This document shows positions 43,686 to 63,953 of a stretch of 64,000 nucleotides of DNA, piece by piece (position 1 is the first letter of the stretch; every line of letters starts with the position of its first letter). Source of the DNA: Bradyrhizobium sp. 1(2017) (GTDB lineage Bacteria; Pseudomonadota; Alphaproteobacteria; Rhizobiales; Xanthobacteraceae); the NCBI RefSeq assembly GCF_011602485.2, contig NZ_CP050022.2:1116001-1180000 (forward strand), read 5' to 3'. The notes beneath the pieces are model-generated. The model did no database searches and was not told the DNA's origin. It worked only from the letters and a program-made list of their open reading frames with translations. Both the position numbers and the translations under genes were made by a program.

Positions 43686-43742
43686 TAGACGGGAGACGCT
43701 AATCCGCCCAGATTGAATGAACGCTTAAACGGCGGTTAAGTT

Positions 43743-43767
43743 GGAACCGGCAACCGACGATCGCGTT
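43743..43767 (+). promoter_or_regulatory. EcfG-type general stress promoter
   Basis: GGAAC 43743-43747 and CGTT 43764-43767 with a 16-base spacer; the DUF2934 start codon is 33 bases downstream. Confidence 0.75.
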
Positions 43768-43799
43768 TGCGCCTGCACAATCCAATGTGGGAGGACAGC

Positions 43800-43970
43800 A
43801 TGGCAAAGCCGACGGATGAGCAGATACGCGAGCGCGCTCACTTGCTGTGGCAAGCGGCGGGCGAGCCTGAAGGGCAGCAGGATCGGTTTTGGTTCGAAGC
43901 CGAGCGCGAGCTGACGCGGTCCGATCCGGCGCTCAATGCGGACGAGAAGTCTGGTAACTTTACCGAGTAG
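43800..43970 (+). CDS. DUF2934 protein, 56 aa
   Basis: From ATG 43800, preceded by GGGAGGAC, it reads MAKPTDEQIRERAHLLWQAA. The short DUF2934 pattern R-x-x-x-L-W-x-x-x-G-x-P-x-G-x-x-x-x-x-W/F-x-x-A-E-x-E-L is met by HLLWQAAGEPEGQQDRFWFE, then AERELTR. These tiny acidic proteins are abundant in rhizobia and often found with stress genes. A perfect EcfG-type promoter precedes it. Its last 11 bases overlap the convergent membrane-protein gene. Confidence 0.88.
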   Translation: MAKPTDEQIRERAHLLWQAAGEPEGQQDRFWFEAERELTRSDPALNADEKSGNFTE

Positions 43971-44403
43971 CGGCTCCGGTTCCAGGCAACGTGCGCCGGA
44001 GCCGCCACATGCCCACGGCGACGGCGAACCAGACCAGAGAGGCGGCAGCCAGGCAGAGCGCCGGATTGAGACGGGGTGCCTGCCACCAGATCACCAGCGC
44101 GAACCCGGCCATGCCGATGCTGCCCCAGCCAGCTCCGGCGGCATCAAGCGCGGCGGCGCCCTTGCCGCGCTGCTCGCCCCGCAGGCCCTTTTGTTGCTTG
44201 CGCTCGCGTTCATGCTTTTCGATCAAGGTCGCACTGGCGCAGAAAATCGCCGGAAAGGCCAGCATCAGCCCGCCGGCCTCGGACCCTGCCAAGTCCGCCA
44301 CGAGACCGGCAACGACAGTCGCGAACCCGCCGAGGGCGAAGCGCGCGACATATTCATAAGGTCGTCCCTGCTTGAGCGCGGAAAACTTAAAATGTGCCGC
44401 CAT
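43960..44403 (-). CDS. Small membrane protein, 147 aa (DUF3147-like)
   Basis: From ATG 44403 it reads MAAHFKFSALKQGRPYEYVA. About four hydrophobic segments are seen, including GGFATVVAGLVADLAGSEAG with GGLMLAFPAIFCASATLIEK, and WFAVAVGMWRL near the end. A basic KHERERKQQKG loop lies between. It resembles DUF3147-type proteins, as does the preceding gene, whose stop is only five bases away. Both follow the Nramp-like transporter, which suggests one operon. Function unknown. Confidence 0.7.
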   Translation of the reverse strand: MAAHFKFSALKQGRPYEYVARFALGGFATVVAGLVADLAGSEAGGLMLAFPAIFCASATLIEKHERERKQQKGLRGEQRGKGAAALDAAGAGWGSIGMAGFALVIWWQAPRLNPALCLAAASLVWFAVAVGMWRLRRTLPGTGAATR

Positions 44404-44408
44404 GACCG

Positions 44409-44747
44409 TTACCCGATGAGGGCTTGCTTGAGGCCTGCCGCCATCACGATCCAGACCACGAGAGCCGCGAGAGTGGATTTGAGCGCCGACCAGTCGGCCC
44501 GCATCAGCAACTGGCAAACAACCATGCTGTAGGCGGCCAGCGCAACCGAACCGAGGATCATCGAGCGAGCTTCGATCGCAACATAGTCGCCGCCATGCTT
44601 CCAGAAAGCGAGGCCGAGCGTGGCAAGCGCCACCGAGGGCGCGGCGCCGAACAATCCCGCGAAACTCTTAGGCCGCAGCACGTCGCCTATGACCGCGAAC
44701 AGTGAGACCACAAGGCCGCCGATGATGAATCGCAATGCATAATCCAC
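44409..44747 (-). CDS. Small membrane protein, 112 aa (DUF3147-like)
   Basis: Starts at GTG 44747 with AAGGAG six bases ahead. Four hydrophobic segments: ALRFIIGGLVVSLFAVIGDV, then RPKSFAGLFGAAPSVALATL, a central ARSMILGSVALAAYSMVV and a C-terminal AALVVWIVMAAGL. The pattern matches small rhizobial DUF3147-type membrane proteins. It is 22 bases after the Nramp-like gene and directly before another of the same type. The pair could form a small hetero-oligomer; that is inference. Confidence 0.75.
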   Translation of the reverse strand: MDYALRFIIGGLVVSLFAVIGDVLRPKSFAGLFGAAPSVALATLGLAFWKHGGDYVAIEARSMILGSVALAAYSMVVCQLLMRADWSALKSTLAALVVWIVMAAGLKQALIG

Positions 44748-44769
44748 GACAGCTCCTTGCTTCTCGCTT

Positions 44770-46080
44770 TTAGGACGTTGTCGGCATCAGCATGCTGGCG
44801 GCCATGCCGACGATGCAAAGAGCCATCGCGGCTGTTGACGCCCAGCCGAGCCAGTACAGCCAGCCTTCGACGACAAGCTTGCCCATCACGTCACGGCGCC
44901 TGACCAGCAGCATCAGCATGGTCATCACCGGCGCCGCCAGTACGCCATTGATGACCGCGCTCCAGTAAAGCGCCTTGATTGGATCGATGGGCGTGAAATT
45001 GAGCGCAACACCGAGGCCGACCGAGAGGGCAAGCACCGAATAGAAAGCCACCGCTTGCTTCGGTTTGCGCGCGAGACCAACCGGCCATTTGCGGCCTTCG
45101 CCGATGGCATAGGCGGTCGATCCGGCCAGCACCGGCACGGCGAGCAAACCCGTGCCAATGATGCCGAGCGCAAAAACCAGTTCGGCCAGCGGCCCCGCAA
45201 TTGGCTTCAAGGCGGCGGCCGCCTGCGCCGATGACTGCACATCGGTCACCCCCTGCTGATGCAGCGTGGCGGCCGTCGTGATGATGATCGCGATCGCAAT
45301 TATGTTCGAGAAGGCCATGCCAATCATCGTGTCGAGCCGAATGCGCCAGAGCTCGCGCTCTTCAGTACGCGCGTCCTCCTTGAGCGGTTTCTTGTCGGGA
45401 TGAATGCGCTGTTCCTCGGCTTCCTGCGAGGATTGCCAGATAAACAGGTACGGCGAGATCGTGGTGCCGAGGATGGCGACCAGCGTCGTCAGAAAGGCGC
45501 CGCTCCATTCGACCTTCGGGATGAACAGTCCCTTGAGCGCGTCAGGCCAGGGCACTTTGACGACCGCCAGCGCAACCACATAAGCAAAAAGCACCAGCGT
45601 CAGCCATTTGAGGATCGCGACATAGCGCTTGTAGGCGATGAAGATCTGCGCCAGTACCGAGACGACCGCAAAGGCAACGACATAGATGATCGCCGAGCCG
45701 CCAATCACCAGCTTCGCGGCATCCGCCATGGCGCCGAGATCGGCCGCAACATTGATCGTGTTGGCGACAAAGAGAAGACCGACGAGCGACCCAATCACCC
45801 AGCTGGGATAATTGCGGCAGACATTGCCGGCGATGCCGTGACCGGTCACCCTTCCGATCCGGCCCGAAATCTCCTGGATCGCTACCATTAATGGATAGCT
45901 GAGAAGCATCGTCCAGCCGATGCCAAAACCAAGCTGCGCGCCGGCCTGGCTGTAAGTGCCGATGCCGGAAGGATCATCGTCCGATGCGCCCGTAATCAGT
46001 CCAGGACCGAGCCGTTTCAGAAGGCCATTCTTCTCATCCGGCTTTTTGTCATCCGGCGTTTTGGCCTCGGCTTTTGCCAT
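44770..46080 (-). CDS. Nramp-like divalent metal transporter
   Basis: The protein has 436 residues from ATG 46080 with GAGGAG ahead. About 11 membrane segments in the LeuT-like Nramp arrangement. The metal-site motif of helix 1 is DPSG (ASDDDPSGIGTYSQAG) instead of DPGN. The helix 6 region reads GTTISPYLFIWQSSQEAEE, without the usual Met-Pro-His. Classical Nramps import Mn or Fe; these changes place this protein in a divergent branch whose substrate may be different. An EcfG promoter upstream of the small gene ahead suggests stress-induced expression. Confidence 0.88.
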   Translation of the reverse strand: MAKAEAKTPDDKKPDEKNGLLKRLGPGLITGASDDDPSGIGTYSQAGAQLGFGIGWTMLLSYPLMVAIQEISGRIGRVTGHGIAGNVCRNYPSWVIGSLVGLLFVANTINVAADLGAMADAAKLVIGGSAIIYVVAFAVVSVLAQIFIAYKRYVAILKWLTLVLFAYVVALAVVKVPWPDALKGLFIPKVEWSGAFLTTLVAILGTTISPYLFIWQSSQEAEEQRIHPDKKPLKEDARTEERELWRIRLDTMIGMAFSNIIAIAIIITTAATLHQQGVTDVQSSAQAAAALKPIAGPLAELVFALGIIGTGLLAVPVLAGSTAYAIGEGRKWPVGLARKPKQAVAFYSVLALSVGLGVALNFTPIDPIKALYWSAVINGVLAAPVMTMLMLLVRRRDVMGKLVVEGWLYWLGWASTAAMALCIVGMAASMLMPTTS

Positions 46081-46206
46081 GTGCTCCTCGGGATCAGGGC
46101 TGCGCAGCGTCCCGTTTGCCACGTCAAGAAGCAACGAGGACTTCTTCGGTCAGAGTTCAACGCGCGATAGGGGACGCCCGCGCCGCCGGGGACGCGGCTC
46201 GCCAGC

Positions 46207-46293
46207 CTAATGGTGCCAGAAGATCGCCAGCAGCAGAATGATCGGCAGCGGGATACCCAGCAACCACAACAATGCGCCTCGTCCAAAACCCAT
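46207..46293 (-). CDS. 28-residue membrane peptide
   Basis: MGFGRGALLWLLGIPLPIILL and a short LAIFWHH tail form a single transmembrane helix. GGAGG lies ten bases ahead of the ATG, and a perfect EcfG-type promoter is 35 bases upstream. I recall near-identical small proteins in other Bradyrhizobium genomes. It lies 127 bases upstream of the Nramp-like gene on the same strand and may be its leader gene or a separate stress peptide. Confidence 0.75.
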   Translation of the reverse strand: MGFGRGALLWLLGIPLPIILLLAIFWHH

Positions 46294-46327
46294 GGCTCTT
46301 TCCTCCAATCATCTGTCCCACGCTTTC

Positions 46328-46353
46328 AACGCCACCGTCCGCCGCACAGTTCC
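46328..46353 (-). promoter_or_regulatory. EcfG-type general stress promoter
   Basis: Minus strand GGAAC (46353-46349) and CGTT (46331-46328) with a 17-base spacer, driving the 28-residue peptide and probably the Nramp-like operon. Confidence 0.75.
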
Positions 46354-46472
46354 TCGCTGGGAACGGTTTTCGCGGCTGTTGATTGAGAGACCGAGATGAC
46401 CTGCTCCGCTTGCCAATCGCTATTTTATGGGATTGCGGCAGGCCGATCGTGGAAAGGAGGTCAAGGCTATCG

Positions 46473-47027
46473 ATGACAATACGCGTGCACCCTTTGCCTG
46501 CCGACACCGCGCTCGCACGCATGATCGCGCGCAACACACGGCCTCTGCCTGAAGACGTATTCTCGATCATCACTTGGGGAGCCGATGGACATGTCCTGAC
46601 GGCGCTCGCCGTCGGATGGTGGCTCTGGTCGCGCTCCAAGCCACCCGCGCAGCGACGGGTAAGCGATCATGTGCTGCTGACGACGCTAGCGGCGGTTCTG
46701 CTGCCTCACCTTTTGAAAACGCAGTTCGATCAGGTCCGGCCCGATCGTCGCACCGTGCGCGGCCATCTTCATGGCATTCCGCTCTCGGGCAAGGCGCTGG
46801 ATGCGTTTCCGTCGGGTCACGCTGTGCATGTCGGCGCCCTTGCTTCCGCCGCAACCGAGTTGCCTCCAGTCAAGAGAAACCTTGTCTGGGCCGTCGGTGC
46901 CGTTCTCGTCTCGACGCGCATCGTTTTGCTCGCGCACTGGGCAAGCGACGTGATCGCGGGTCTGGCGATCGGCGCGGTCCTCGAGCGCCTGATGCGGCGG
47001 CTGACCGGCTTCGGAAGGTCGCGCTAG
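46473..47027 (+). CDS. PAP2-family phosphatase
   Basis: The protein has 184 residues from ATG 46473; AGGAGG lies twelve bases ahead. The three phosphatase signatures are present: KTQFDQVRPDRR, then FPSGHAVH, then STRIVLLAHWASDVIAGL with the catalytic His/Asp. Several hydrophobic segments make it an integral membrane lipid phosphatase type, acting on phosphatidic acid, undecaprenyl diphosphate or similar. The downstream cysteine hydrolase starts three bases after its stop, so the two are one transcript. Confidence 0.9.
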   Translation: MTIRVHPLPADTALARMIARNTRPLPEDVFSIITWGADGHVLTALAVGWWLWSRSKPPAQRRVSDHVLLTTLAAVLLPHLLKTQFDQVRPDRRTVRGHLHGIPLSGKALDAFPSGHAVHVGALASAATELPPVKRNLVWAVGAVLVSTRIVLLAHWASDVIAGLAIGAVLERLMRRLTGFGRSR

Positions 47028-47029
47028 TC

Positions 47030-47638
47030 ATGGGGCAATTGCTCTCACCGCCTGGCCCGCATGCCGTCCATCTCTGCATCGATATGCAAGGATTGTTCGC
47101 GCCCGGTGCTCCATGGGCAACGCCTTGGCTTGAGCATGCGCTACCCGAGGCGGTCAGGTTGATTGCACATGCGCCGCAGCGTACCGTCTTCACGCGATTC
47201 ATACCCGTCCGCAACAAGGCCGAGGCGCGCGGCGTCTGGAAGGCCTATTACGAGAAATGGGAATGCGTAACACGTGATAGGATCGATCCGGCGCTGCTGG
47301 AACTGATGCCGGCCCTGCTACGCTTCGTGCCGCCTGCCACTGTCATCGACCGCCAAACCTACTGCGCTTTCGCCAATGGGCGGCTGCAAGGCTTCCTTGA
47401 TGGGCATCAGGTGGATACGCTGATCGTTTCCGGCGGCGAGACCGATGTTTGTGTGCTGGCCACCGTGCTTGCCGCGGTCGATATTGGCTACCGCGTGATC
47501 CTTGCCGAAGACGCGCTATGCAGCTCATCCGATGAGAGCCACGACGCGCTGATCGAGCTCTATACCAAGCGCTTCAGCCTGCAGATCGAGGTGGCATCGG
47601 TTGACCGCATTCTAGCGAGTTGGGCGGTCGATGACTGA
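47030..47638 (+). CDS. Isochorismatase-like cysteine hydrolase
   Basis: The protein has 202 residues (MGQLLSPPGPHAVHLCIDMQ). The catalytic triad is visible: Asp in LCIDMQGLF, a Lys in the central region, and Cys141 in SGGETDVCVLATVLAAVDIG preceded by the cis-peptide-type GG. The family includes nicotinamidases, N-carbamoyl hydrolases and isochorismatases; nothing fixes the substrate. It follows the PAP2 gene directly. Confidence 0.9.
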   Translation: MGQLLSPPGPHAVHLCIDMQGLFAPGAPWATPWLEHALPEAVRLIAHAPQRTVFTRFIPVRNKAEARGVWKAYYEKWECVTRDRIDPALLELMPALLRFVPPATVIDRQTYCAFANGRLQGFLDGHQVDTLIVSGGETDVCVLATVLAAVDIGYRVILAEDALCSSSDESHDALIELYTKRFSLQIEVASVDRILASWAVDD

Positions 47639-47782
47639 GCGCGTAGGATGATGGAACTTCTAGGGCGCGCTTAACATAGGTTAGACTTGTGCTTGCAAAG
47701 CAAACACTTCGATCAACGGGCTTGAATTGAAGCCGATCACATGGCCCGATGGGTGGGCGTCCCGCCGATCAGGATCGAAACT

Positions 47783-49183
47783 GTGAGCCGTACCAAAAGG
47801 CGCCTTTACCAATTGCTTCTCGCCGCCGCGCTGCTGGCGGCGGGGGCAGCGGCCGCCCAGGAAAACAAGAAGACCGACGACGATAAGCCGGCCGATCCCG
47901 ATACGGGCGAAAGTACCGTGGAGGAAAAGACGCTGGGTCTCCTTCCCAACCCTTTCCAAAAATACGGCGTCAAATTCGCAGCCACCTATATCGGCGAAGT
48001 GCTGGGCAACCCTTCCGGCGGACTGAAACAGGGTTCGGTCTACGAAGGTCGGTTGAATCTCGCCGTGGACCTAGACCTGCAAAAGCTCGCCGGCCTCGAT
48101 CAGCTGACATTCCATGCCAACTTGTTCCAAATCCATGGCGGCGGGTTGTCGCGCGGCAGTCTACAGAATTACTTTGTGGTCAGCGGGATCGAGGCGTTGC
48201 CGTCCACGCGTCTTTACGAGGCATATTTTGAAAAGCAGTGGGGCAACAAGAAAGTCTCAATCAAAATGGGGCAACTCGCGGCCGACAGCGAGTTCTTCAA
48301 TACCAAATACACCGACGTGCTGACAAACGCCTCGATGGGCTGGCCGGCTATCACCTCGCTTGATTTGCCAAGCGGCGGTCCGTCGCCTCCCTTGGCTGCC
48401 ATGGGAGCCCGGCTTCTGGTGAATGTCACTGAGCAGTTGTCCGTTCTTGGCGGCATCTTCGATGGCGATCAGGCTGGGCCCGGCCCCGGGGATCCGCAGG
48501 AGCGTAACCGCTATGGCCTCAACTTCCGCGTCAACGATCCGCCCCTCCTGCTCGGCCAGATCCAGTATGCCTGGAATAACACAAAGGGCGATCCGAACCC
48601 GGCCGGCCAGATCAAGTTTGGCGGCTGGCGACATTTTGGGTCTTTCGCCGATCAGAGATTGGCGTCCAAAGGCGTCTCACTCGCTTCACCCGTTAGCAGC
48701 GGCGAACCTCTGCTCTTGTCCGGTGATGTCGGCGGCTGGATGGTATTCGAGCAGAAGCTCTATCGTGTGCCGAAAAGCGACGACCGTGGCATTGGCATCT
48801 TTGCGCGTATCTCGGGTGCGCCTGCCGACCGCAATCTTATTGATCGCTACGCCGACGCCGGCATCGAATTCATCGGACTCGACGACCGCCGTCCCGACGA
48901 CAAGTTCGGAATTGCAGCCGGCTACGCACATGTATCGAAGCGCGCACAGGCGCTCGATGCGGATTATCGCACATTTGTCGATCCAACCTGGCCGATGCGA
49001 AGTTTTGAAGGCCTTCTGACGGCCGTGTATCAATATCAGATCAGGGACGGGTGGACGTTACAGCCCAATCTTCAATACATCATCCATCCGGGTGGAAGTG
49101 CCACCAGCCCTTCCAGTGCAATGCCCGGCAAGGCGCTTCACAATGCGACAGTGCTTGGCCTGCGAACGACCCTGAAGTTTTGA
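47783..49183 (+). CDS. OprB-like carbohydrate-selective porin
   Basis: The protein has 466 residues if GTG 47783 is the start, which puts a clean signal peptide (MSRTKRRLYQLLLAAALLAA to AAAAQE) at the N-terminus; ATG 47741 is 14 codons upstream and possible. The mature protein shows the OprB pattern: LNLAVDLDLQKLAGLDQLTF, then EAYFEKQWGNKKVSIKMGQL. Aromatic-ended beta strands run to the C-terminal phenylalanine (LRTTLKF), the sign of an outer-membrane barrel. It probably admits sugars or polyols. No sugar transporter lies nearby. Confidence 0.87.
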   Translation: MSRTKRRLYQLLLAAALLAAGAAAAQENKKTDDDKPADPDTGESTVEEKTLGLLPNPFQKYGVKFAATYIGEVLGNPSGGLKQGSVYEGRLNLAVDLDLQKLAGLDQLTFHANLFQIHGGGLSRGSLQNYFVVSGIEALPSTRLYEAYFEKQWGNKKVSIKMGQLAADSEFFNTKYTDVLTNASMGWPAITSLDLPSGGPSPPLAAMGARLLVNVTEQLSVLGGIFDGDQAGPGPGDPQERNRYGLNFRVNDPPLLLGQIQYAWNNTKGDPNPAGQIKFGGWRHFGSFADQRLASKGVSLASPVSSGEPLLLSGDVGGWMVFEQKLYRVPKSDDRGIGIFARISGAPADRNLIDRYADAGIEFIGLDDRRPDDKFGIAAGYAHVSKRAQALDADYRTFVDPTWPMRSFEGLLTAVYQYQIRDGWTLQPNLQYIIHPGGSATSPSSAMPGKALHNATVLGLRTTLKF

Positions 49184-49276
49184 GCCATGTGCCTGGAAAC
49201 CTGGCGCCACGCGTTGCAGGAAACGTCGAGACGTCCCGAATGACGCGTGACTGCGCAGTGCCTGAATATTGCCCCG

Positions 49277-49483
49277 TTACTTCTTTTTCTTGGGGACTTT
49301 CTTGCCTTTTTTGCGGGCCTTGGAGAGGCCGATCGCGATTGCCTGCTTCTTGCTTTTCACCTTGCCGCCCTTTCCACCACGGCCGCTTTTGGCGGTCCCC
49401 TTCTTGTACCGTCGCATCTCGCTCTTGACGTCCGAGCCTGAGCTCTTCGAGGTGCGACGCTTCTTCTTTGCTTTCTTTGCCAT
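49277..49483 (-). CDS. Lys/Arg-rich DUF6496 protein, 68 aa
   Basis: From ATG 49483 (AGGAAG ahead) it reads MAKKAKKKRRTSKSSGSDVK. The DUF6496 pattern is EMRRYKKGTAKSGRGGKGGK followed by KQAIAIGLSKARKKGKK. The very high Lys/Arg content suggests nucleic-acid binding; such proteins are widespread near stress genes, but their role is unproven. It is convergent with the porin gene. Confidence 0.8.
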   Translation of the reverse strand: MAKKAKKKRRTSKSSGSDVKSEMRRYKKGTAKSGRGGKGGKVKSKKQAIAIGLSKARKKGKKVPKKKK

Positions 49484-49886
49484 GGGTTTCTTCCTTTCCG
49501 TGTTCGGATAACGACAGACGTTGTCAAGTCGTCGGGCTGTCACCACCCCCACCGACCATCCAATCCTCGATGCCTTCGTCGTCTTCCTCAGTACTCAGCC
49601 GCCAACTGCGTCGGCGGAATCGGTCGGATATCTGTTGCTTCAGCTGAGTTCTGGTGCGGCGCATCGATCAAGGGTTCTCCACGCCATCAACCATGCAACA
49701 TCTGGCGGCGTTCCTATGCGGTCAATCCTATTCATCGCGTGCTAGGTCGGATGCGCGGAGCTGTACCTTGGAATTTGCCCGCGCCATCGAAATGTGTCGC
49801 CACACAGCTTAGCCGCGCGACGGATCAGCAAGATACACGCTCTAGTCACCAGTGATGAGTACGATGGCGATGACTGAGAGTGCAGC
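49484..49886. other. Intergenic, no feature recognised
   Basis: About 400 bases between the DUF6496 gene and the pyrophosphatase gene. One 74-codon frame on the plus strand has neither a binding site nor a protein-like composition. No repeat or promoter motif was seen. Confidence 0.5.
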
Positions 49887-50402
49887 TCAGCGGGCCAGCC
49901 GTTTGATGGCCTTGGTCGTACGGTTTGGCCCATGCCAGCCGAGAAACTTCAGATCCTTGTTCTCCAGGGCATTCGTTGCCCGGAAGAACTGCTCGAGATC
50001 ATCGCGCGCATGCGATGGAAGATTGCGGATATCCTTGAGATCGGTTTCGAGCGGTGACCGGTCCGGTACCGCAAAAATGCGGTCGTTTCGCTCGCTCTTG
50101 CCCTTTTTCTTCTGCTCGACTTCGAGAATGCCGATCGGCCGGCAGCGTAGCACAACACCGGGATAGGTTTGCGCGTCGTGCAGGATCAGCACATCCAGCG
50201 GATCGCCATCCTCGGCCTTGGTCGAGGGAATGAAACCCCAATCGTAGGGATAGGTCAGGCCCGCAATCAACGGCTTCGCCAGAGCAAAAGCACCGAGCTT
50301 AGGATCGAATTCGAGCTTGCACGAACTACCGCGCGGCGTCTCGACCACGGCGAAGATGTTGTTATCGTCAGCCCAACTCGGCAGTTTTATCAGATTGGTC
50401 AT
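49887..50402 (-). CDS. Inorganic diphosphatase (family I)
   Basis: The protein has 171 residues (MTNLIKLPSWADDNNIFAVV). The signature EDGDPLDVLIL carries the three metal-binding aspartates, and YPYDWGFIPST and KSERNDRIFAVPD match the family. It cleaves pyrophosphate, pulling biosynthetic reactions. The sequence differs from the usual housekeeping Ppa in having an extended C-terminal region with RTTKAIKRLAR, so it is probably an accessory copy. It follows the DUF892 gene after 67 bases, so it may share the stress promoter at 51.0 kb. Confidence 0.88.
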   Translation of the reverse strand: MTNLIKLPSWADDNNIFAVVETPRGSSCKLEFDPKLGAFALAKPLIAGLTYPYDWGFIPSTKAEDGDPLDVLILHDAQTYPGVVLRCRPIGILEVEQKKKGKSERNDRIFAVPDRSPLETDLKDIRNLPSHARDDLEQFFRATNALENKDLKFLGWHGPNRTTKAIKRLAR

Positions 50403-50469
50403 GACGGATGACTTGGCCTCGCAAGGAGTAGCAGGCCCGATGGAAAACGATCCGTCGGGCCCTGCCGGA

Positions 50470-50985
50470 TCATGCGGCGGTGGAGGCCTTCTTGTTGACG
50501 CCCTTGCGCAACGCGACTGTGTTGAGCTTGGTGTTCGCCGCCTTTTCTTCGTTGAGGTTCGTCGTCAGGAAGCGCACGATGTCGTCGTGGCCGAGCTCTT
50601 CCGCCCAAGCGATCAAGGTGCCATAGCGGCAAATCTCGTAGTGCTCGACGGCCTGCGCGTTGGCTACGATCGCCGCATCCAGCACCGTCTTGTCTTCGAT
50701 CTCGCCGGCCGTTTCGTCGGCTTCCTTGATGATGCCGTCGATGGCCGGGCATTGCGTGCCGCTTGGCGATTGGCCGAGTTTCTCGAAGACCTTCTCAAGC
50801 CGTTCGATCTGCTTGTTGGTTTCCTCGAGATGATTCTTAAGGCCAGTGGCCAGATCACGGTTGGTGGCCTTGTCGATCATTTTCGGCAAGGCCTTGGTGA
50901 TCTGCTGTTCGGCATAATAGATGTCCTGCAAGCCATGCAGCAGCAGGTCGTCCATCGTCTTGATGTCTTTGGTGAATAGTCCCAT
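50470..50985 (-). CDS. DUF892 ferritin-like stress protein (paralogue)
   Basis: The protein has 171 residues and is nearly the same as the protein at 22385-22900, differing at scattered positions only (for example MGLFTKDIKTMDDLLLHGLQ against MGIFTKDIKTMEDLLIHGLQ). The Glu/His metal pattern is intact (DIYYAEQQITKALPKMIDKA, AVEHYEICRYGTLIAWAEEL). The EcfG-type promoter is at the same distance in both. Gene duplication or shared acquisition of two copies in one region is implied. Pyrophosphatase follows. Confidence 0.92.
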   Translation of the reverse strand: MGLFTKDIKTMDDLLLHGLQDIYYAEQQITKALPKMIDKATNRDLATGLKNHLEETNKQIERLEKVFEKLGQSPSGTQCPAIDGIIKEADETAGEIEDKTVLDAAIVANAQAVEHYEICRYGTLIAWAEELGHDDIVRFLTTNLNEEKAANTKLNTVALRKGVNKKASTAA

Positions 50986-51013
50986 GGCTTACTCCTTGCT
51001 CCAAAGCGGGGGA

Positions 51014-51038
51014 AACGCACGCTCAGCGTGCCGGTTCC
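51014..51038 (-). promoter_or_regulatory. EcfG-type general stress promoter (DUF892 side)
   Basis: Minus strand GGAAC (51038-51034) and CGTT (51017-51014), 16-base spacer, 29 bases ahead of the DUF892 start. It is divergent from the one at 51098. Confidence 0.78.
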
Positions 51039-51097
51039 TATGCGACAACGCCGCAGCCGGCCGGGAAGATGATGACATGGCGTATCGCGCGTCCGCA

Positions 51098-51122
51098 GGA
51101 ACTCGCGCGAACAGGCCGCGTT
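51098..51122 (+). promoter_or_regulatory. EcfG-type general stress promoter (FAD-Rieske side)
   Basis: GGAAC 51098-51102 and CGTT 51119-51122, 16-base spacer, 25 bases ahead of the FAD-Rieske start codon. Together with 51014 it forms a divergent pair in 108 bases. Confidence 0.78.
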
Positions 51123-51146
51123 TTGCCTCTTTGGGTGGAGTTCAAC

Positions 51147-54341: not shown

Positions 54342-54445
54342 TAGGCATGTTTCGCGGAGTCGGGAACCAACCGGCCAAGGCGACCCAGGGGCAGGAAAAA
54401 CAATGGTACCGCACCCCTCTGGTCCTGGCGCGGGGGATGAGGCCT

Positions 54446-57157: not shown

Positions 57158-57636
57158 TGACACAGGCGAGCATGTCCGAAAGCCATGAGCTGGCCGATCC
57201 GACCGATCGTTCGCCTGATGATAAAGTGGCGCCCGCCGCCGACGAACCGAACGATCATGTTGATCAGTCCCGCGCGGTCCTGATCGTCGAAGACGATTTT
57301 TTGATCGCCATGCAGGCTGAAGCCGCGTTGCTCGATGCTGGCTTTCGGGTGACCGGCATTGCAACCACCGCCGAGGAAGCCTTGACGATGGCAAGGGAAC
57401 AGAAGCCGGCCCTTGCTATCATGGATATACGTCTGGCCGGCCGACGCGACGGCGTCGAGGCAGCCGGTGATCTCTTTCGCGAGCTCGGCTTGCGCTGTGT
57501 CTTTGCTACGGCCCATGATGATCTCTTGACCCGCACGCGGGCCGAGCCGTTCGCGCCGCTTGGCTGGCTCTCGAAGCCTTATACCATGGCTTCCCTGACG
57601 AGCGTGGTCCGTGCAGCGTTGACGCGGCCAGCCTAG
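57154..57636 (+). CDS. Single-domain response regulator
   Basis: The protein has 160 residues with a ~38-residue acidic leader, then one receiver domain: RAVLIVEDDFLIAMQAEAAL, acceptor D91 in LAIMDIRLAGRRDG, conserved Thr in CVFATAHDD and Lys in GWLSKPYTM. No output domain. It is translationally coupled to the HWE kinase and is its evident phospho-acceptor. Single receivers of this kind can act in phosphorelays that modulate the PhyR-NepR-EcfG switch; that role here is inference. Confidence 0.9.
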   Translation: MMTQASMSESHELADPTDRSPDDKVAPAADEPNDHVDQSRAVLIVEDDFLIAMQAEAALLDAGFRVTGIATTAEEALTMAREQKPALAIMDIRLAGRRDGVEAAGDLFRELGLRCVFATAHDDLLTRTRAEPFAPLGWLSKPYTMASLTSVVRAALTRPA

Positions 57637-57679
57637 CTTCTGCGCGTCCAGCGTCGATGGCGCGACACTTCAGTAGATA

Positions 57680-57704
57680 GGAACGACCGCGTTGCGAGGC
57701 CGTT
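57680..57704 (+). promoter_or_regulatory. EcfG-type general stress promoter
   Basis: GGAAC 57680-57684 and CGTT 57701-57704, 16-base spacer, 36 bases ahead of the manganese catalase start codon. Confidence 0.78.
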
Positions 57705-57739
57705 TGGGACTCATCTCCCTTCAAGCCCGAGGCTCTTTC

Positions 57740-59014
57740 ATGTATCACCACGTCAAGAAGTTGATGTTCACCGTCCGCGTCGATGAGCCGGACCCGCGCT
57801 TTGGCAATATGCTTCTTGAACAGTTCGGCGGCGCCAACGGCGAACTTGCAGCCGCGATGCAGTATTCGATCCAGGGCCTCAATTGCGAGGACCCCGATCG
57901 CAAGGACCTCCTGATGGATATCGGCACCGAAGAGCTGAGCCATCTGGAAGTCGTCGGTACGCTGGCCCGCATGCATCTCAAGCCGGCGAAGTTTGATCGC
58001 CAGGCGGCCGAGGCCGATCCGCTGATCGCGATCGCGGGTGGGGGCGGCGTGAATCTCTTCAATTCGCAAGGCAATGCCTGGACCGCCGATTACCTGAAGA
58101 TCACGGGCGAACTGGACGTGGACCTGCGCAGCAATATTGCCGCCGAAGCGCGGGCGAAGATCGTCTACGAACGCCTGATCAACTTTACTGACGACGCCGG
58201 CACTAAGGACGCCTTGCAGTTCCTCATGACCCGCGAAATCACCCATATGAAGGCATTCTCGCTCGCCCTCGAGAGCATGAGCAAGCCGGCCTTCAGCATT
58301 GGCCGCATCGCGCCCACACCGGGTCTCGTCGACCAGTTCTTCAACGACTCCACGGGCACCGGCGATCATGGTGAGATCGACACCCGCGGGCCCTGGAACG
58401 AGGGCGGCGAATGGGTCTTCACGGAATCGCCGGCCATTCAGGCCGGGGAACCAGGACCCGCGGCGGCTATCGTCACCGAAAGCTCACCGCCGGTCGACGA
58501 GGCCGGTCTTGGCGACCTGCTGATCGACGAGCTCCGCGACATCCTTCACGCCGAGAAGCAGTTGACGAAGGCGCTTCCCAAGATGGCGGAAGCGGCGCGA
58601 TTCGACCAGTTGCGCGAGCTGTTCGAGCTGCATCTCGGCGAGACCGAAACCCAGATCGAGCGCATCAATGAATGCTTTGAGTTGCTCGGCAAGTCCGCGC
58701 GCGCCAAGCCCTGCAAGGGCATGATGGGTCTTGTCGAAGAAGGTCAGGAAGTCATGACCGAGGGCGAGGAGAAGGAAGACGCCGCGGCCGACCTCGCCCT
58801 GATCGGCGCGGCGCAGCGGGTCGAGCATTATGAGATTGCCGGCTACACGACAGCGCGCAACCTTGCCCAGCAGCTACGCCATAGCGCCGTCGTCAGCCTC
58901 CTATCGAAGTCACTGGCAGAAGAGGAAAACGCGGACCAATTGCTCAACCAGGTCGCGCGGTCCCTGATGTCCGTCGCCAAGATGCCGGCCGCCGTCGAAC
59001 AGACCGAACAGTAG
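57740..59014 (+). CDS. Manganese catalase fused to a DUF892 (YciE-like) domain
   Basis: The protein has 424 residues from ATG 57740. Residues 1-250 are a non-haem manganese catalase: MYHHVKKLMFTVRVDEPDPR, E35 in NGELAAAMQ, E65 and H68 in GTEELSHLE, E136 in IAAEARAKI and H169 in REITHMKAF are the expected dimanganese ligands. Residues ~262-410 form a DUF892 ferritin-like domain (GLGDLLIDELRDILHAEKQL, RVEHYEIAGYTTARNLAQQL), homologous to the two stand-alone DUF892 proteins here. Catalases of this type split hydrogen peroxide; normal length is about 270-300. The fusion joins peroxide removal to a second metal-binding four-helix bundle. Confidence 0.92.
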   Translation: MYHHVKKLMFTVRVDEPDPRFGNMLLEQFGGANGELAAAMQYSIQGLNCEDPDRKDLLMDIGTEELSHLEVVGTLARMHLKPAKFDRQAAEADPLIAIAGGGGVNLFNSQGNAWTADYLKITGELDVDLRSNIAAEARAKIVYERLINFTDDAGTKDALQFLMTREITHMKAFSLALESMSKPAFSIGRIAPTPGLVDQFFNDSTGTGDHGEIDTRGPWNEGGEWVFTESPAIQAGEPGPAAAIVTESSPPVDEAGLGDLLIDELRDILHAEKQLTKALPKMAEAARFDQLRELFELHLGETETQIERINECFELLGKSARAKPCKGMMGLVEEGQEVMTEGEEKEDAAADLALIGAAQRVEHYEIAGYTTARNLAQQLRHSAVVSLLSKSLAEEENADQLLNQVARSLMSVAKMPAAVEQTEQ

Positions 59015-59108
59015 GCGGATGAGGGCGGTCCCGAGCAATGCCACGGTAACTGCGCAGCTTTGAGTCTGCGTCAGCCGCCGTGCCTTGCTGTAGTCGGAGG
59101 CGTTGCCG

Positions 59109-59451
59109 ATGTCGTCCATCGTCCCTCAGCGTGACGAGCAGGACATCTATCTCGGTGAAGACGATGGTGGCGCCTCGGGCCCTGTCTGGTGCGAGGCGCC
59201 CGTCCTTGGCAACGACTTCGAAGCCGTTGTGATGGATCTGCTGGAGGGAAACTATCAATGCCCGCGCCGGGTCGCGGTCTATCGCTCAAGGTTGGGTGCG
59301 CGATGCGTCGGCCGAGGTGGTTCACGAATTGCGGCGGCGCTGCGATCTCCAGCTCCGCGATATACCGGAGGCCCTGCATGCCTTTACCGACCGCTATGAA
59401 GGACGCTTCGCGGACGTGCAATTGCCGTTGCCAATACCAATAGGCATTTAA
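59109..59451 (+). pseudogene. Conserved small hypothetical protein, frameshifted
   Basis: From ATG 59109 it reads MSSIVPQRDEQDIYLGEDDG and FEAVVMDLLEGNYQCPRRVA. After about 59280 the expected sequence continues in another frame as AQGWVRDASAEVVHELRRRC, then RDIPEALHAFTDRYEGRFAD, to a stop at 59451. I recall this pattern (a strand ending ...AFNTAEGWSRD...) from rhizobial hypothetical proteins of about 110 residues. A loss of five bases, or a gain of one, near 59275-59285 would explain the break. If the sequence is right, the gene is dead. Confidence 0.7.
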
Positions 59452-59467
59452 GCCTTCCACACACGCC

Positions 59468-60412
59468 ATGACACAACCTGTCACCCCTGCCACCTTTCTA
59501 AGCCTTCCTGCGGGCGCGCCCGACATGGTCTCAAGCGCGGATGTCGTGATCTTTGGTGCGCCGGACGCGACGCCGCATGTTCCGGGCGCCACCAGCCATG
59601 CCGCACGGGCTCCTTCGGCTCTACGGGAAAGTACCCAGCAAATTGCGCGTGATCCCTTGCGGTGGGATTTCGATCAGGACGGCCCGTTGATCCCCGAAGG
59701 ATTGCGGGCGGTTGATCTTGGCGACCTTCCAACCGATCCGGCAACACCGCAGGAGAACCGCTCGCTGATCACATCCACAACCGTGAGCATTCTGAAGGCG
59801 GGCGTCGTGCCTCTGCTGCTCGGCGGGGATGACTCGGTTCCCATTCCATTCTTCGCGGGGTTCGAGCGGTTTGGCCCCGTCACCATCCTGCAAATCGATG
59901 CGCATCTCGACTGGCGTGACGAGCGGGATGGCCTCAAGCATACATTCTCCAGCACCATGCGCCGCGCCAGCGAAATGCCATGGGTGGAGCGGATCATTCA
60001 GGTTGGACAGCGCGGCATCGGTGGTTCGCGGGAACGGGATCTTGCCGACGCCCAAGCTTGGGGCGTGACACTGTTCAGTGCGGCGACCGTGCGCCGACAT
60101 GGCGTGCAGCCAGTCATCGACCTCATCCCGCCGGGCAGCCAATGCGTCGTTACGCTCGATTGCGACGGCCTCGACCCGACTGTTATTCCCGCGGTGCTGG
60201 TCCCACAGCCGGGCGGTCTCGGCTATCTCGATATCGTCGAGCTGTTGCATGGCGTTACGCAACGGGCGCGGATCGTTGGTTTTGATCTCGTGGAATTGGT
60301 GCCGGATGCGGATGTACGAGGCTTAGGCGTGCTCGCCGCCTCGCGCATTCTCTGCGTTGCCCTCGGATGCGTGGCGCGACAGCGATCCGCTATGAGGCTA
60401 GCGGATCAATGA
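59468..60412 (+). CDS. Ureohydrolase (agmatinase/guanidino-acid hydrolase type)
   Basis: The protein has 314 residues. Metal motifs: LLLGGDDSVPIPFF (Asp in place of the usual His of GGDHS), ILQIDAHLDWRDE (DAHxD) and VVTLDCDGLDPTVIPA (DxDxxDP). The N-terminal FGAPDATPHVPGATSHAARA resembles the agmatinase substrate loop. Enzymes of this type hydrolyse guanidino compounds with manganese (or nickel). The frame starts 17 bases after the broken small gene. It is unlike the ureohydrolase at 15.2 kb in sequence. Confidence 0.9.
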   Translation: MTQPVTPATFLSLPAGAPDMVSSADVVIFGAPDATPHVPGATSHAARAPSALRESTQQIARDPLRWDFDQDGPLIPEGLRAVDLGDLPTDPATPQENRSLITSTTVSILKAGVVPLLLGGDDSVPIPFFAGFERFGPVTILQIDAHLDWRDERDGLKHTFSSTMRRASEMPWVERIIQVGQRGIGGSRERDLADAQAWGVTLFSAATVRRHGVQPVIDLIPPGSQCVVTLDCDGLDPTVIPAVLVPQPGGLGYLDIVELLHGVTQRARIVGFDLVELVPDADVRGLGVLAASRILCVALGCVARQRSAMRLADQ

Positions 60413-60429
60413 CAGCACGAGAGACCTGA

Positions 60430-61215
60430 TCAGGATTTTGCGGTGCCGGGCTCCGCCTGTTTGCGATGCTGCTTGGCGAGTGTTTCGGCCGGCGTCACAT
60501 TGGCAACCGCCGACTGGATCTTGTTCTTGAGGCCGGTCACGACATCGCCTTCGCCATTCATCATCGCCTCGAAACCCTTGCGGGCGACCATCGCCGCATC
60601 GTCCTTGTCCTCAGAGCCCACTTTGGTGTCGAGCATATCTGCGCGTGCGAAGAACTCGGTCTCGGTGGCGCCCGGCATCAGGCAGGTGACCGTCACTTTC
60701 GTGTCGCGCAGTTCCTCGCGCAGCGCAAAAGAGAGGGAGTTCAGGTACGACTTCGAGGCGTTGTAGACGGCCTGGAAGCTCCCCGGGGTGAAGCCCGCGA
60801 TCGAACCGGTAATAAGGATCTGTCCCTCATTGCGCCGGCGCATGTCCTGGCCAACCCGATGGAGCAGGTAGGTCGTCCCCATGACGTTGGTGTCGATCAC
60901 CTGACGGACACGCGCCCACTCCTGATCCAGGAAAGCATGGCCCAGGCCGCGGCCGGCATTGGCCATCAGCACGTCGACCTTGCGACCTTGTGCAACCTCG
61001 TAGAGCTCGTCGACGCCTTCAATGGTAGCTAGATCGGCTTGCAACGCCACAACGGCGATGCTGTTGACTTCTTTGCGCAGCGCCTCCGCGGCCGCCTCGA
61101 TCTCGGGTTCATCCGCGGCGACGAGAAGGTCATATCCTTTGGAGGCGCAGAGCCGGGCAAGCTCAAAGCCGATGCCGGTCGAGGCACCCGTCACAATTGC
61201 AAACTGTCCGGCCAT
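60430..61215 (-). CDS. Short-chain dehydrogenase/reductase
   Basis: The protein has 261 residues. Cofactor motif IVTGASTGIGFELARLC (TGxxxGIG), NAG in VDVLMANAGRGLGH (NAGR), catalytic Ser in ILITGSIAGF and YxxxK in AVYNASKSYLNSLSFALREE. Acidic DEPEIEA after the second strand argues for NAD rather than NADP; this is inference. The C-terminal extension ends AKQHRKQAEPGTAKS. An EcfG-like promoter with CATT as -10 is upstream, and the gene is divergent from the zinc alcohol dehydrogenase. Confidence 0.92.
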   Translation of the reverse strand: MAGQFAIVTGASTGIGFELARLCASKGYDLLVAADEPEIEAAAEALRKEVNSIAVVALQADLATIEGVDELYEVAQGRKVDVLMANAGRGLGHAFLDQEWARVRQVIDTNVMGTTYLLHRVGQDMRRRNEGQILITGSIAGFTPGSFQAVYNASKSYLNSLSFALREELRDTKVTVTCLMPGATETEFFARADMLDTKVGSEDKDDAAMVARKGFEAMMNGEGDVVTGLKNKIQSAVANVTPAETLAKQHRKQAEPGTAKS

Positions 61216-61257
61216 GGGCGCATTCCCTCTCGGTTTTTTTTACGTGGCTCTGAGCCT

Positions 61258-61282
61258 AATGGGGCACAGGCGAGAGCGTTCC
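61258..61282 (-). promoter_or_regulatory. EcfG-like promoter, CATT variant
   Basis: Minus strand GGAAC (61282-61278) with CATT (61261-61258), 16-base spacer, 43 bases ahead of the SDR start. The GGAAC is one arm of the inverted repeat GTTCCTAA-gcgg-TTAGGAAC at 61278-61297; the other arm faces the alcohol dehydrogenase but has only a GCTT/CTTG at the -10 distance. Confidence 0.55.
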
Positions 61283-61347
61283 TAAGCGGTTAGGAACCAG
61301 CCGCAAGATTGATGCTTGGTCTGGTCGCGCAACCTTTGGAGCGGAGC

Positions 61348-62523
61348 ATGAAAGCCCTCACCTGGCACGGCAAGAGCGACATCCGCTGTGAATCCGTTCC
61401 CGATCCCAAGATCCAGGACGGACGTGACGCGATCATCAAGGTGACGGCCTGTGCGATCTGCGGCTCGGACCTTCATCTGTTCGACGGCATCATGCCCACC
61501 ATGGAAAAAGGCGATGTGCTCGGCCACGAGACAATGGGCGAGGTTGTCGAGGTCGGCAAGGACAATAGCAAGCTCAAGGTCGGCGACCGCGTGGTGGTGC
61601 CCTTCACCATTGCCTGTGGCGAATGCTTTTTCTGCAAGAACGGCTTCTACTCCGGTTGCGAGCGCTCCAACCCCAACGCCAAAGAGGCTGAGAAAATGTG
61701 GGGGCATTCGCCCGCTGGCCTGTTCGGCTATTCGCACATGTTGGGCGGCTTTGCCGGCGGCCAGGCCGAGTATATGCGCGTACCGTACGCGGATGTCGGG
61801 CCTTATAAGGTCCCGGAGGGGCTCACGGACGAACAGGTCTTGTTTCTCTCGGATATTTTCCCGACCGGCTATATGGCCGCGGAATTTTGCAACCTCAAAG
61901 GCGGCGAGACAGTCGCCGTCTGGGGCGGCGGACCAGTCGGCCAGTTTGCCATCAAGAGCGCATTTCTGCTGGGCGCCGAACGGGTGATCGCCATCGACAC
62001 GGTGCCCGAGCGATTGACCCTCGCCATGCAATCGGGCGCCATCACGCTCGATTTTATGAAAGAGGATGTCTACGAGCGCATCCAGCAACTCACGCAAGGG
62101 CGCGGCGCCGATGCCTGCATCGATGCGGTCGGCACCGAGCCTGACACCATGGCAAGCAAGGATTCTGTGATCGATCGCATCAAGGTCGCGACCTTCATGG
62201 GAACCGATCGCCCGCATGTTTTGCGGCAGGCCATCCAATGCTGCCGCAACTTCGGTACTGTCTCGATTGTCGGCGTCTATGGCGGCGTGCTCGACAACAT
62301 CCCGATGGGCAGTGCCATCAATCGCGGACTAACCTTCCGCATGGCCCAGACCCCTGTTCAGCATTACCTGCCCAAGCTTTTGCAACGCATCGAAAAGGGC
62401 GAGATCGATCCAAGCTTCGTTATCACCCATCGAGCGACGCTTGAGGAAGGGCCCGATCTCTACAAGACGTTCCGCGCCAAACAGGATGGCTGCATCAAGG
62501 TCGTGATGAAGCCGTTCGGCTGA
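61348..62523 (+). CDS. Zinc-dependent alcohol dehydrogenase (formaldehyde-dehydrogenase-like)
   Basis: The protein has 391 residues from ATG 61348, with GGAGCGGAGC ahead. Catalytic zinc site: [11 protein letters not shown] (Cys) and [16 protein letters not shown] (His-Glu). Structural zinc: [20 protein letters not shown], four Cys. NAD-binding [37 protein letters not shown] and [17 protein letters not shown] match the glutathione-independent formaldehyde dehydrogenase branch. It probably oxidises short aldehydes or alcohols. The downstream DUF305 gene starts within the stop codon (TGATG), so both are co-translated. Confidence 0.93.
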
Positions 62524-63641
62524 TGGGAGAGGGCGCCGCGAAAGAGTCGAAGTCGAATTGGCTGGCGGCCGCTCAACTCGGGCTTGTCAGCAGCACGTTT
62601 TCGACGCTCATCAGCCAGCTTGCGGCGTCACAGTTGGGACGGGACGCGGCGGTCGACTGGATGACGGTCGCTGCCATTCCAGGTCGCGACGCCATGCTGA
62701 GCGCGTCGCCTTCGGTTCACGCGATTGCCCTTGGCATCGCCTTTCATCAATGGGCGGACTTTTCCTGGGCGCTGGTCTTCTTCGGTCTGTTTGGGCGCTG
62801 GACGAGCCGTCTTGTGCCCGGCACTCTCTTTTGGCTGGCGATACCCTGGGCCGCGGTTACTTCGGCGACCGAGTGGTTTGGACTGGTGCCGCTGTTTCCG
62901 TTCTTCCAGCCGATCTTCACTTTGCAGCAACCCTACTGGATCGGCTTTCTCGTTCATCTCTCGTCCGCTTTGATCTATCCCCTGTTCGCCTGGCTGCGTT
63001 GGCCGCTGGGGCGCGCGCCGCCAACATCCGCGGTGCGCTTTGCCAAACGGTGGGCAGCGGGAGCACTTCTCGTGCTTGCAACGTTCGGCCTTGTTTCCGT
63101 GATTGATGGGTTGGGTTGGCCGCTGCCAATCCTCAGCCGCGATGTTGCCGGTGATCAGCGCTATATCCGCCATATGGTCACGCATCATGAGCAAGGAATT
63201 GAGCTTGCTAAGCTCGGCCAGCAGCGTGCGCAGGACCCGCACCTGCGCGCGCTCGCGGCCTTGATGATCGCCAGCCAGCAGGGCGAGAACCGCATCTTCG
63301 ATCGTTGGTGGCGCGGGTGGTTCAGCGAGCCGATGGCGCTCTGCTCGAGCGAGGAGCGGGTGGCCATGCCTGGCTATCTGACGTCGGCACAAATGGCGGA
63401 TGCGCGCAACGCGGCCGATGGTGAGTTTGATGCGATGTTTATCCGTCTGATGAGCCTGCATCATGCCGGCGCCGTCCAGATGGCGGATAACCAATGGCAT
63501 TCGTCCGGCGATCCCCGCCTGCGTCTGATGGCGCATGCCATACGACATGAGCAGCAAGGCGAGATTGCTTTGATGAACAACGTCACGGGCATCGAAGCCG
63601 TGCGGCAGGCGACGCGCAACATGCTGGCCAACAATCTCTGA
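62523..63641 (+). CDS. Membrane protein with C-terminal DUF305 domain
   Basis: The protein has 372 residues. The N-terminal half holds four to five hydrophobic segments (for example ALVFFGLFGRWTSRLVPGTL, FWLAIPWAAVTSATEW). The C-terminal half is DUF305, a four-helix domain with two His-pair motifs RYIRHMVTHHEQGIELAKLG and FIRLMSLHHAGAVQMAD, likely metal ligands, in the periplasm. DUF305 proteins are often linked to copper or iron handling. The fusion to a multi-pass membrane part is unusual. It is co-translated with the alcohol dehydrogenase. Confidence 0.87.
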   Translation: MGEGAAKESKSNWLAAAQLGLVSSTFSTLISQLAASQLGRDAAVDWMTVAAIPGRDAMLSASPSVHAIALGIAFHQWADFSWALVFFGLFGRWTSRLVPGTLFWLAIPWAAVTSATEWFGLVPLFPFFQPIFTLQQPYWIGFLVHLSSALIYPLFAWLRWPLGRAPPTSAVRFAKRWAAGALLVLATFGLVSVIDGLGWPLPILSRDVAGDQRYIRHMVTHHEQGIELAKLGQQRAQDPHLRALAALMIASQQGENRIFDRWWRGWFSEPMALCSSEERVAMPGYLTSAQMADARNAADGEFDAMFIRLMSLHHAGAVQMADNQWHSSGDPRLRLMAHAIRHEQQGEIALMNNVTGIEAVRQATRNMLANNL

Positions 63642-63662
63642 CCAACCTTAATCTTTCTCTCA

Positions 63663-63687
63663 GGAACGAGCTTCTGATCTCGCCATT
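63663..63687 (+). promoter_or_regulatory. EcfG-like promoter, CATT variant
   Basis: GGAAC 63663-63667, 16 bases, CATT 63684-63687; the KGG-protein start codon is 39 bases downstream. One mismatch from the -10 consensus. Confidence 0.6.
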
Positions 63688-63725
63688 AGCCTTCATGGGC
63701 CGGGCAACAAACAAGGAGAAGATTG

Positions 63726-63953
63726 ATGGCAGACGAACAACGTGGTGGCTCCGGAAATTTCGCCAACGATCCGCAGCGCGCGTCTGAGGCCGGCAAGAAG
63801 GGTGGCGAGCAAAGCCACGGCCAGCAGGGACAGCAGACCCAGGGCGGAAGCAAGCCCGGCCAGCAGGGCGGGAGCTCGACGGACAATCCGGGCAATTTCG
63901 CCAACGATCGCGAGAAGGCCAGCGAAGCCGGACGTAAAGGCGGCCAGTCCTAA
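63726..63953 (+). CDS. KGG-motif stress-induced protein
   Basis: The protein has 75 residues from ATG 63726 with AGGAG ahead. Two copies of the stress motif, GNFANDPQRASEAGKKGG and GNFANDREKASEAGRKGG, flank a Gln/Gly/Ser-rich linker. It is highly hydrophilic and probably disordered, like the GsiB/YciG family of desiccation- and stress-induced proteins. It is separate from the alcohol dehydrogenase operon, with its own EcfG-like promoter. Confidence 0.9.
   Translation: MADEQRGGSGNFANDPQRASEAGKKGGEQSHGQQGQQTQGGSKPGQQGGSSTDNPGNFANDREKASEAGRKGGQS

Follow-up and report, generated by a model that had tools for sequence, protein, structure and literature searches.

In Bradyrhizobium sp. 1(2017), whose genome is one 7.86-Mb contig, we examined a 64,000-nucleotide stretch (genome positions 1116001-1180000, hereafter the window) that contains a block of stress-type genes with repeated promoter-like elements of the sigma-EcfG type, the sigma factor of the PhyR-NepR-EcfG general stress response (GSR). 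The block spans window positions 43719..64000 and continues to genome position 1181992, about 2 kb beyond the window end, with DNA ligase and DUF72 genes. Our favored reading, to which we assign a probability of about 0.75, is that these stress genes belong to the accessory DNA of Bradyrhizobium and form a laterally exchanged mosaic in which eight units each have their own EcfG promoter.

Genes and candidate promoters of the block

Perfect matches to GGAAC-N16/17-CGTT were found 10 times in the window, compared with a mean of 1.06 in 100 dinucleotide shuffles, none of which reached 10. An earlier reading of this DNA from its letters (the sequence-only reading) had expected about one such motif in 64 kb, and its coordinates were correct for six sites in the block (43743, 46328, 51014, 51098, 54316, and 57680), three outside it (5971, 14716, and 22931), and two CATT variants (61258 and 63663). 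It had overlooked the tenth perfect site, at 56439..56463 on the minus strand, antisense within the kinase gene described below. The six sense sites of the block have the -35 GGAAC, the -10 CGTT, and the 16-17 base spacer of EcfG promoters; the CATT pair is off by one base.

Using the calls of a simple gene caller, with operon membership judged from short gaps, we arranged the genes behind these sites into eight units with separate candidate promoters, of the CGTT type in six and the CATT type in two. The first is a candidate GGAAC-N16-CGTT promoter (43743..43767, plus strand), also present in two other Bradyrhizobium genomes (G123 and G002), ahead of a DUF2934 small protein of 56 amino acids (43800..43970, plus; PF11154). 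The second, on the minus strand, begins at a GGAAC-N17-CGTT element (46328..46353; present in G123, G002, and a third genome, G180) and consists of a 28-amino-acid membrane microprotein (46207..46293), whose open reading frame (ORF) was overlooked by the gene caller, an NRAMP metal transporter (44770..46080; PF01566), for which Mn2+ is a guess, a DUF3147 protein that is probably cotranscribed with it across a 22-base gap (44409..44747; PF11345), and a second DUF3147 protein (43960..44403; PF11345). The third and fourth are divergent. A minus-strand element (51014..51038) lies ahead of a DUF892 (YciF-like ferritin-fold) protein (50470..50985; PF05974), from which an inorganic pyrophosphatase is probably read through after a 67-base gap (49887..50402, minus; PF00719), and a plus-strand element (51098..51122) lies ahead of an FAD oxidoreductase of the DAO family with a Rieske domain (51147..52652; PF01266, PF00355) and a second DAO oxidoreductase that overlaps it (52571..53905; PF01266).

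The remaining units begin with a plus-strand GGAAC-N17-CGTT element (54316..54341) and a leader of about 105 bases, followed by a PAS/GAF HisKA_2 histidine kinase (54446..57157; PF07568, 57.6 bits; a longer frame opens at 54347) and a lone receiver resembling that of PhyR (57157..57636; PF00072). The sixth element (57680..57704, plus) precedes a Mn-catalase fused to a DUF892 ferritin-like domain (57740..59014, plus; PF05067, PF05974). Units seven and eight have putative promoters of the CATT type: one on the minus strand (61258..61282; kept in G123, G002, Arg816, G180, and G106) for a short-chain dehydrogenase (SDR; 60430..61215, minus; PF00106), and one on the plus strand (63663..63687; shared with G123, G002, and G180 but missing from Arg816) for a KGG stress-repeat protein (63726..63953, plus; PF10685).

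Between these units stand genes for which no EcfG site was found, even allowing one mismatch: PAP2 phosphatase, isochorismatase-like, and OprB porin genes (46473..49183, plus; Pfam assignments), a DUF6496 protein (49277..49483, minus; PF20106), an arginase/agmatinase-family enzyme (59468..60412, plus; PF00491; the best NCBIfam model was agmatinase, below its cut-off), and a Zn alcohol dehydrogenase with a DUF305 protein (61348..63641, plus). A 92-codon frame with no Pfam match (53902-54180, minus) lies upstream of the Mn-catalase or the kinase in several relatives (69-95%).

Six of the eight block sites are followed by a called start after 25-43 bases, counted from where the element ends. Between the element at 46328 and the NRAMP start there are 248 bases, yet the 28-codon ORF, which has a good ribosome site, is only 34 bases away; once this ORF is counted, seven of the eight sites lie 20-45 bases ahead of a start, as the sequence-only reading had held, and its leader of about 105 bases behind 54316 is borne out with a kinase start near 54446. 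That start is itself mainly based on one 87% relative, in which similarity begins at residue 33 with a stop codon before it.

Placement and conservation of the elements

A genome-wide scan for background density, proposed by the sequence-only reading, gave a divided result: the raw count did not differ from that of the reversed pattern (151 sites and 157, respectively), while placement was above controls. Of 146 sites used from the 151, 123 were intergenic, compared with 332/1,054 matches to control motifs, and 50/146 lay in sense orientation 12-70 bases before a called start, compared with 52/1,054. The controls were 200 composition-matched motifs scanned only in a 284-kb region around the window, within which the EcfG motif itself was intergenic at 18/20 sites and promoter-placed at 11/20. 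Site placement, not site number, is thus non-random genome-wide. With seven sites, the block ranks first in density among 20-kb stretches of the genome (mean of uniform draws 3.6; largest of 2,000 draws, 7), and its surroundings are the densest 64 kb with 11 (mean 5.6; largest of 2,000 uniform draws, 10). An extended pattern, consisting of the element and an ATGGG start 20-45 bases on, occurred six times in this genome and not once in reversed form, and was found in 98/98 genomes of the genus that were searched.

Conservation was assessed in the upstream regions of relatives, drawn from 79 Mn-catalase loci (75 of which are labelled Bradyrhizobium), kinase loci, and copies of the block, with each distinct sequence counted once (the L138 and G058 stretches being one record, and Arg816 being the same as G088). 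The element was present in 18/18 distinct upstreams of DUF892 relatives (taken at 70% or more). For the DAO-Rieske gene, CGTT was found in 12/14 and NGTT in 14/14, and across this genome, Arg816, G123, G002, G180, and G106 the two boxes of its promoter are constant and the spacer varies. Upstream of the Mn-catalase, CGTT was present in 41/81 and NGTT in 70/81 distinct sequences, with no CGTT or CATT site at that place in G180 and G106. The CATT element of the SDR was kept in 4/13, and the element of the kinase was present in 11/22 within the stretch examined. As a control, relatives of 14 genes that lack a site in the window had the element in 2/111 upstreams (NGTT, 3/111; reversed pattern, 0); both positives belonged to the pyrophosphatase, which has its own element in 2/12 relatives. 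The kinase (11/22), NRAMP (0/2, its site being further upstream), one gene with 0/1, and genes without relatives were left out of this control.

That the motif matches are chance occurrences in GC-rich DNA, for which the equality of the genome total and the reversed control would speak, is contradicted by local density, intergenic placement, spacing, and conservation, although the raw genome counts alone would not do so; we trust placement over the raw count because conservation agrees with it. Several observations nonetheless count against reading every element as a promoter. In addition to the raw genome count and the genes without a site, the CATT variants alone are not in excess in the window (2, with 0.98 expected), and the element is kept in just 1/10 distinct upstreams for DUF2934 and 1/3 for KGG. 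The Mn-catalase site reads TGTT and not CGTT in G123, G002, and Arg816. Furthermore, G180 and G027 have the antisense motif of 56439 at the corresponding position, such that a kept motif is no proof of a promoter. We did not count this site as a promoter, which is a judgement that considers its position antisense within the kinase gene and its absence from G123, G002, and G058. Taken together, placement, spacing, conservation in relatives, and the stress-type nature of the genes provide good support for the prediction that the elements behave like EcfG promoters.

The 28-amino-acid frame behind 46328 looks like a real gene, judging from its substitutions: 8 silent and 0 amino-acid changes relative to L223, 6 silent and 1 amino-acid change relative to L228, and 7 silent and 3 amino-acid changes relative to L084, a second copy in this genome at 6.26 Mb. 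Both boxes of its promoter are kept in L223 and L228, with a diverged spacer; no EcfG element was found ahead of the L084 copy. An NRAMP gene follows the frame in L223, and no NRAMP match was found in the L228 and L084 stretches, so that the link to NRAMP appears not to be universal. This ORF replaces a long NRAMP leader or riboswitch as the explanation of the 46328 site. An Rfam scan of the window returned only a ROSE element, elsewhere than 46328: a putative RNA thermometer (27524-27620, minus; 61.6 bits) directly upstream of an Hsp20 gene (27072-27530). A general wave of EcfG-driven microproteins is not claimed; short frames occur at 27/146 sites, and few are membrane-like.

The genes ecfG, nepR, and phyR themselves are in this genome at 1.285 Mb, about 105 kb beyond the window end, with phyR at 1.286 Mb. 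The assignment to the PhyR-NepR-EcfG response in the sequence-only reading is thus in keeping with the motif, its placement, and the presence of these three genes; that EcfG actually regulates the units is something we infer. Other elements in the genome include those ahead of a Fe/Mn superoxide dismutase (genome 1300303-1300899) and a dodecin (1204407-1204628), by 36 and 55 bases, and there are smaller clusters at 4.0, 6.06, and 7.12 Mb. Two such clusters span genome positions 7111052-7128896 and 3995831-4048509, and one element precedes a strongly hydrophobic frame of 51 amino acids (7120018-7120173).

The block in other Bradyrhizobium genomes

The block has a G+C content of 0.61, compared with approximately 0.65 outside; in 5-kb bins, values were 0.593-0.632 over window positions 20-70 kb and mostly 0.64-0.67 elsewhere, with a few other low bins. 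Some part of the block was matched in 217 of 265 genomes of the genus (this one included), but besides this genome only G002, G123, and G180 gave a single match over most of it. Positions 43719-65992 are colinear in G123 and G002 at 94.7-95.8% identity (blastn), and G180 shares 46189-65800 at 95.7%. The left flank behaves differently. For 35-42.9 kb the longer matches in these genomes map elsewhere; what adjoins the block there is limited to a 62-base match near 42.8 kb and a match of 42930-43609 at 80% (one flank stretch reading N was left out). This genome also contains a second, partial copy at 6.06 Mb; its DUF892, DAO-Rieske, DAO, and Mn-catalase genes have 82-87% identity, and three perfect elements are kept.

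The block is more similar between these genomes than the sequences used for comparison. A 12-kb core stretch has 88-91% identity in G123, G002, G180, and Arg816, and the ecfG-nepR-phyR-hsp90 locus has 87-90% in G123 and 88% in G002. Gene by gene, nucleotide identity in G123, G002, and G180 was 95.5-96.3% for the block and 90.3-90.8% for the core stretch, and at four-fold sites identity was 0.887, 0.887, and 0.913 for the block versus 0.811, 0.796, and 0.787 for the core, respectively. In addition, the distance between the block and ecfG-phyR is about 0.1 Mb here and about 1.5 Mb in G123 and G002. From these comparisons we infer that the block arose through lateral exchange and module shuffling and that it was probably transferred recently.

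The sequence-only reading had taken the block to be one co-regulated stress unit that includes a dedicated kinase and receiver; as a rival explanation, such a unit would also have been inherited whole. The same motif on most units and the colinear copies in G123 and G002 are what this would predict. Yet there are eight candidate promoters and several genes without a site, gene content around the Mn-catalase differs among the 79 loci, one match spanning most of the block was obtained in only three of the other 264 genomes, and the kinase-receiver pair is missing from Arg816, G106, and the 6.06-Mb copy. We therefore consider a single unit improbable; the block appears accessory and mosaic instead.

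A vertical origin deserves more weight, although we consider it unlikely. According to this explanation the EcfG promoters are real, and the cluster is ordinary, with stress genes accumulating in an accessory region and a block that evolves slowly. EcfG sites are indeed found genome-wide, with the other clusters at 4.0, 6.06, and 7.12 Mb, block similarity in Arg816 is core-like (four-fold identity 0.804), and colinearity, at about 80%, extends for a few hundred bases beyond the left end of the block. What speaks for exchange is that four-fold sites of the block, too, are closer than those of the core in three genomes, that the distance to ecfG-phyR differs in G123 and G002, and that most of the flank at 35-42.9 kb is elsewhere or unmatched.

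The case for transfer has weaknesses of its own beyond the value for Arg816. It depends on one 12-kb core stretch and the ecfG-phyR locus, the core figure is inflated since two of the nine gene calls in the core, with four-fold identity about equal to or above their overall identity, appear to be out of frame, and the G123 and G002 copies are nearly alike and hence not independent. The three left-most genes (43.8-44.7 kb) have core-like divergence (four-fold 0.58-0.74), which implies that the transferred part probably begins near the NRAMP gene. With respect to the features of integrative islands, atypical composition and patchy distribution were observed, but Pfam integrase or transposase families were absent from 62/63 window gene calls and eight right-flank calls, and there was no tRNA in the window; end repeats were not searched. 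A literature search of titles and abstract openings returned nothing on this block or on mobile EcfG islands.

The sequence to the right of the block (genome 1182119-1183706, the Hsp20 region) is matched at 78-82% in G123 and G002, but there on the left side of the block, which looks like a permuted order. Elsewhere in the window, FAD-linked oxidase domains extend over two neighboring frames at 32065-33504 (minus), possibly a broken gene, and 10429-13200 (minus) encodes a large protein with a Tle1-like phospholipase domain of type VI secretion systems.

The kinase-receiver pair and comparison with known systems

Pfam models place four PAS stretches, a GAF domain, and HisKA_2 (57.6 bits) in the kinase; HWE also passed its cut-off, at 27.6 bits. 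The pair that the sequence-only reading had called a dedicated HWE kinase and receiver is thus present, but HisKA_2 fits better than HWE, and the pair appears removable. Arg816, G106, and the 6.06-Mb copy lack it while having both flanks, and in this sense it behaves as a cassette. The kinase was found in 23/146 genomes at E ≤ 1e-150 (this one included), and in 21 of the 22 non-self relatives a receiver lies directly downstream. An element stands directly ahead of the kinase in 4/22, the four closest relatives (L183-L186), and about 420-640 bases upstream in 16/22, which are more distant; in the five of these 16 that were aligned, a signal-peptide-like frame follows it directly. Among the remaining relatives, the element of L199 is ahead of a MEDS gene, and the position in L204 was not assigned. 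The signal-peptide-like ORF (834-1250 in L195, 138 codons, no Pfam match) is conserved in the aligned L188, L189, L193, and L197, just behind the EcfG element and ahead of the related kinase-receiver pair. In L199, the MEDS-domain gene (3834-4463, minus) starts 26 bases behind the element, upstream of the related kinase.

After itself, the receiver's best match in this genome is the receiver of PhyR (37%), and its best NCBIfam model is PhyR (2.7e-27; 96 bits, far below the cut-off of 240 because a lone receiver is compared with a full-length model). Among solved structures, PhyR 4qic (56.5 bits) was one of the six best, most others being generally named, and the diguanylate-cyclase receiver 3cg0 (59.6 bits) outscored it. 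By analogy with known systems, the pair most likely exchanges phosphate with the PhyR pathway and acts as feedback, as LovK/LovR do; a role as an additional input to PhyR signalling is almost as likely. A pair that does not communicate with the GSR at all, and serves as an EcfG output controlling something else, such as motility or cyclic di-GMP, has a considerable chance of being correct, though we favor the connection to PhyR. HisKA_2 kinases are diverse, the receiver has just 37% identity to that of PhyR, and 3cg0 ranks above the named PhyR structure, all of which would suit such an output. The connection to PhyR is favored in turn by PhyR being the best match both in this genome and in NCBIfam, and by the pair being repeatedly downstream of an EcfG-type site in relatives. 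The second-best match to the lone receiver in this genome is the C-terminal receiver of a bacteriophytochrome HWE kinase at another locus (L029, genome 2150850-2157850), where a motif at 2154350 is followed, 188 bases downstream, by a heme oxygenase-like gene and this kinase; here light input may possibly be tied to the stress response.

If the accessory, separately promoted mosaic is the correct reading, stress kinases would phosphorylate PhyR, PhyR would take NepR off sigma-EcfG, and EcfG-RNA polymerase would start each block unit separately. The products would include Mn-catalase and ferritin-fold proteins, an NRAMP importer behind the 28-amino-acid protein, FAD-Rieske oxidoreductases, SDR, pyrophosphatase, DUF2934, and KGG proteins. 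As a removable cassette under the same promoter type, the HisKA_2 kinase with its PhyR-receiver-like partner would feed back on the PhyR pathway. More speculatively, and with distinctly less confidence, the block could be a traveling, pre-wired stress package: genes arriving with their own EcfG promoters would obey the PhyR-NepR-EcfG switch of a new host at once, a swappable HisKA_2 kinase with a stolen PhyR-like receiver would retune that switch, and an EcfG-driven membrane microprotein would be included. The class of promoter is a known one, as are most of the gene families; new would be a block transferred in pre-wired form, a kinase pair that acts as a cassette, and the hidden gene for the 28-amino-acid protein. 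If true, stress tolerance of soil and nodule bacteria would spread as units bearing the promoter of a conserved host switch, some of which bring a regulator of the switch; differences in drought and peroxide tolerance between strains would be predictable from sequence; and one kinase, one receiver, and eight promoters would provide a compact test bed for GSR tuning.

Among known systems, excerpts of PMC5964349 and PMC6599016 describe Pak/SdrG and MrrA modules, in which HWE/HisKA2 kinases feed lone receivers upstream of PhyR. These lone receivers are of the FATGUY type, and the block's receiver differs in scoring 23 bits with SdrG versus 56.5 with PhyR 4qic. It has FAT, without the rest of what we take to be the FATGUY string. 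Closer in arrangement is LovK/LovR of Caulobacter crescentus, which is SigT-controlled and drains phosphate from the GSR (excerpts of PMC5964349): both systems have an adjacent HWE/HisKA_2 kinase and lone receiver, and LovK/LovR form an operon under the GSR sigma factor. The pair here differs in having several PAS domains and a GAF domain, a PhyR-like receiver (LovR was not compared by sequence), and an accessory distribution. No LOV-specific model exceeded its cut-off in the kinase; Pfam returned PAS and GAF families, and a blue-light-kinase model scored 133 bits, below its cut-off of 450. For the EcfG regulon (sigma-EcfG/RpoE2/SigT) as a whole, portions of the literature give GGAAC-N16-CGTT as the promoter of R. 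etli sigma-EcfG1 (PMC3892343), list catalases and ferritin-like proteins in the regulon of S. melonis (PMC6599016), and count more than 100 genes in that of B. diazoefficiens (PMC8092242). The block resembles these regulons in its putative promoters and its catalase and ferritin-like genes, and differs from them in that eight units stand together in a mosaic of about 20 kb that varies between species.

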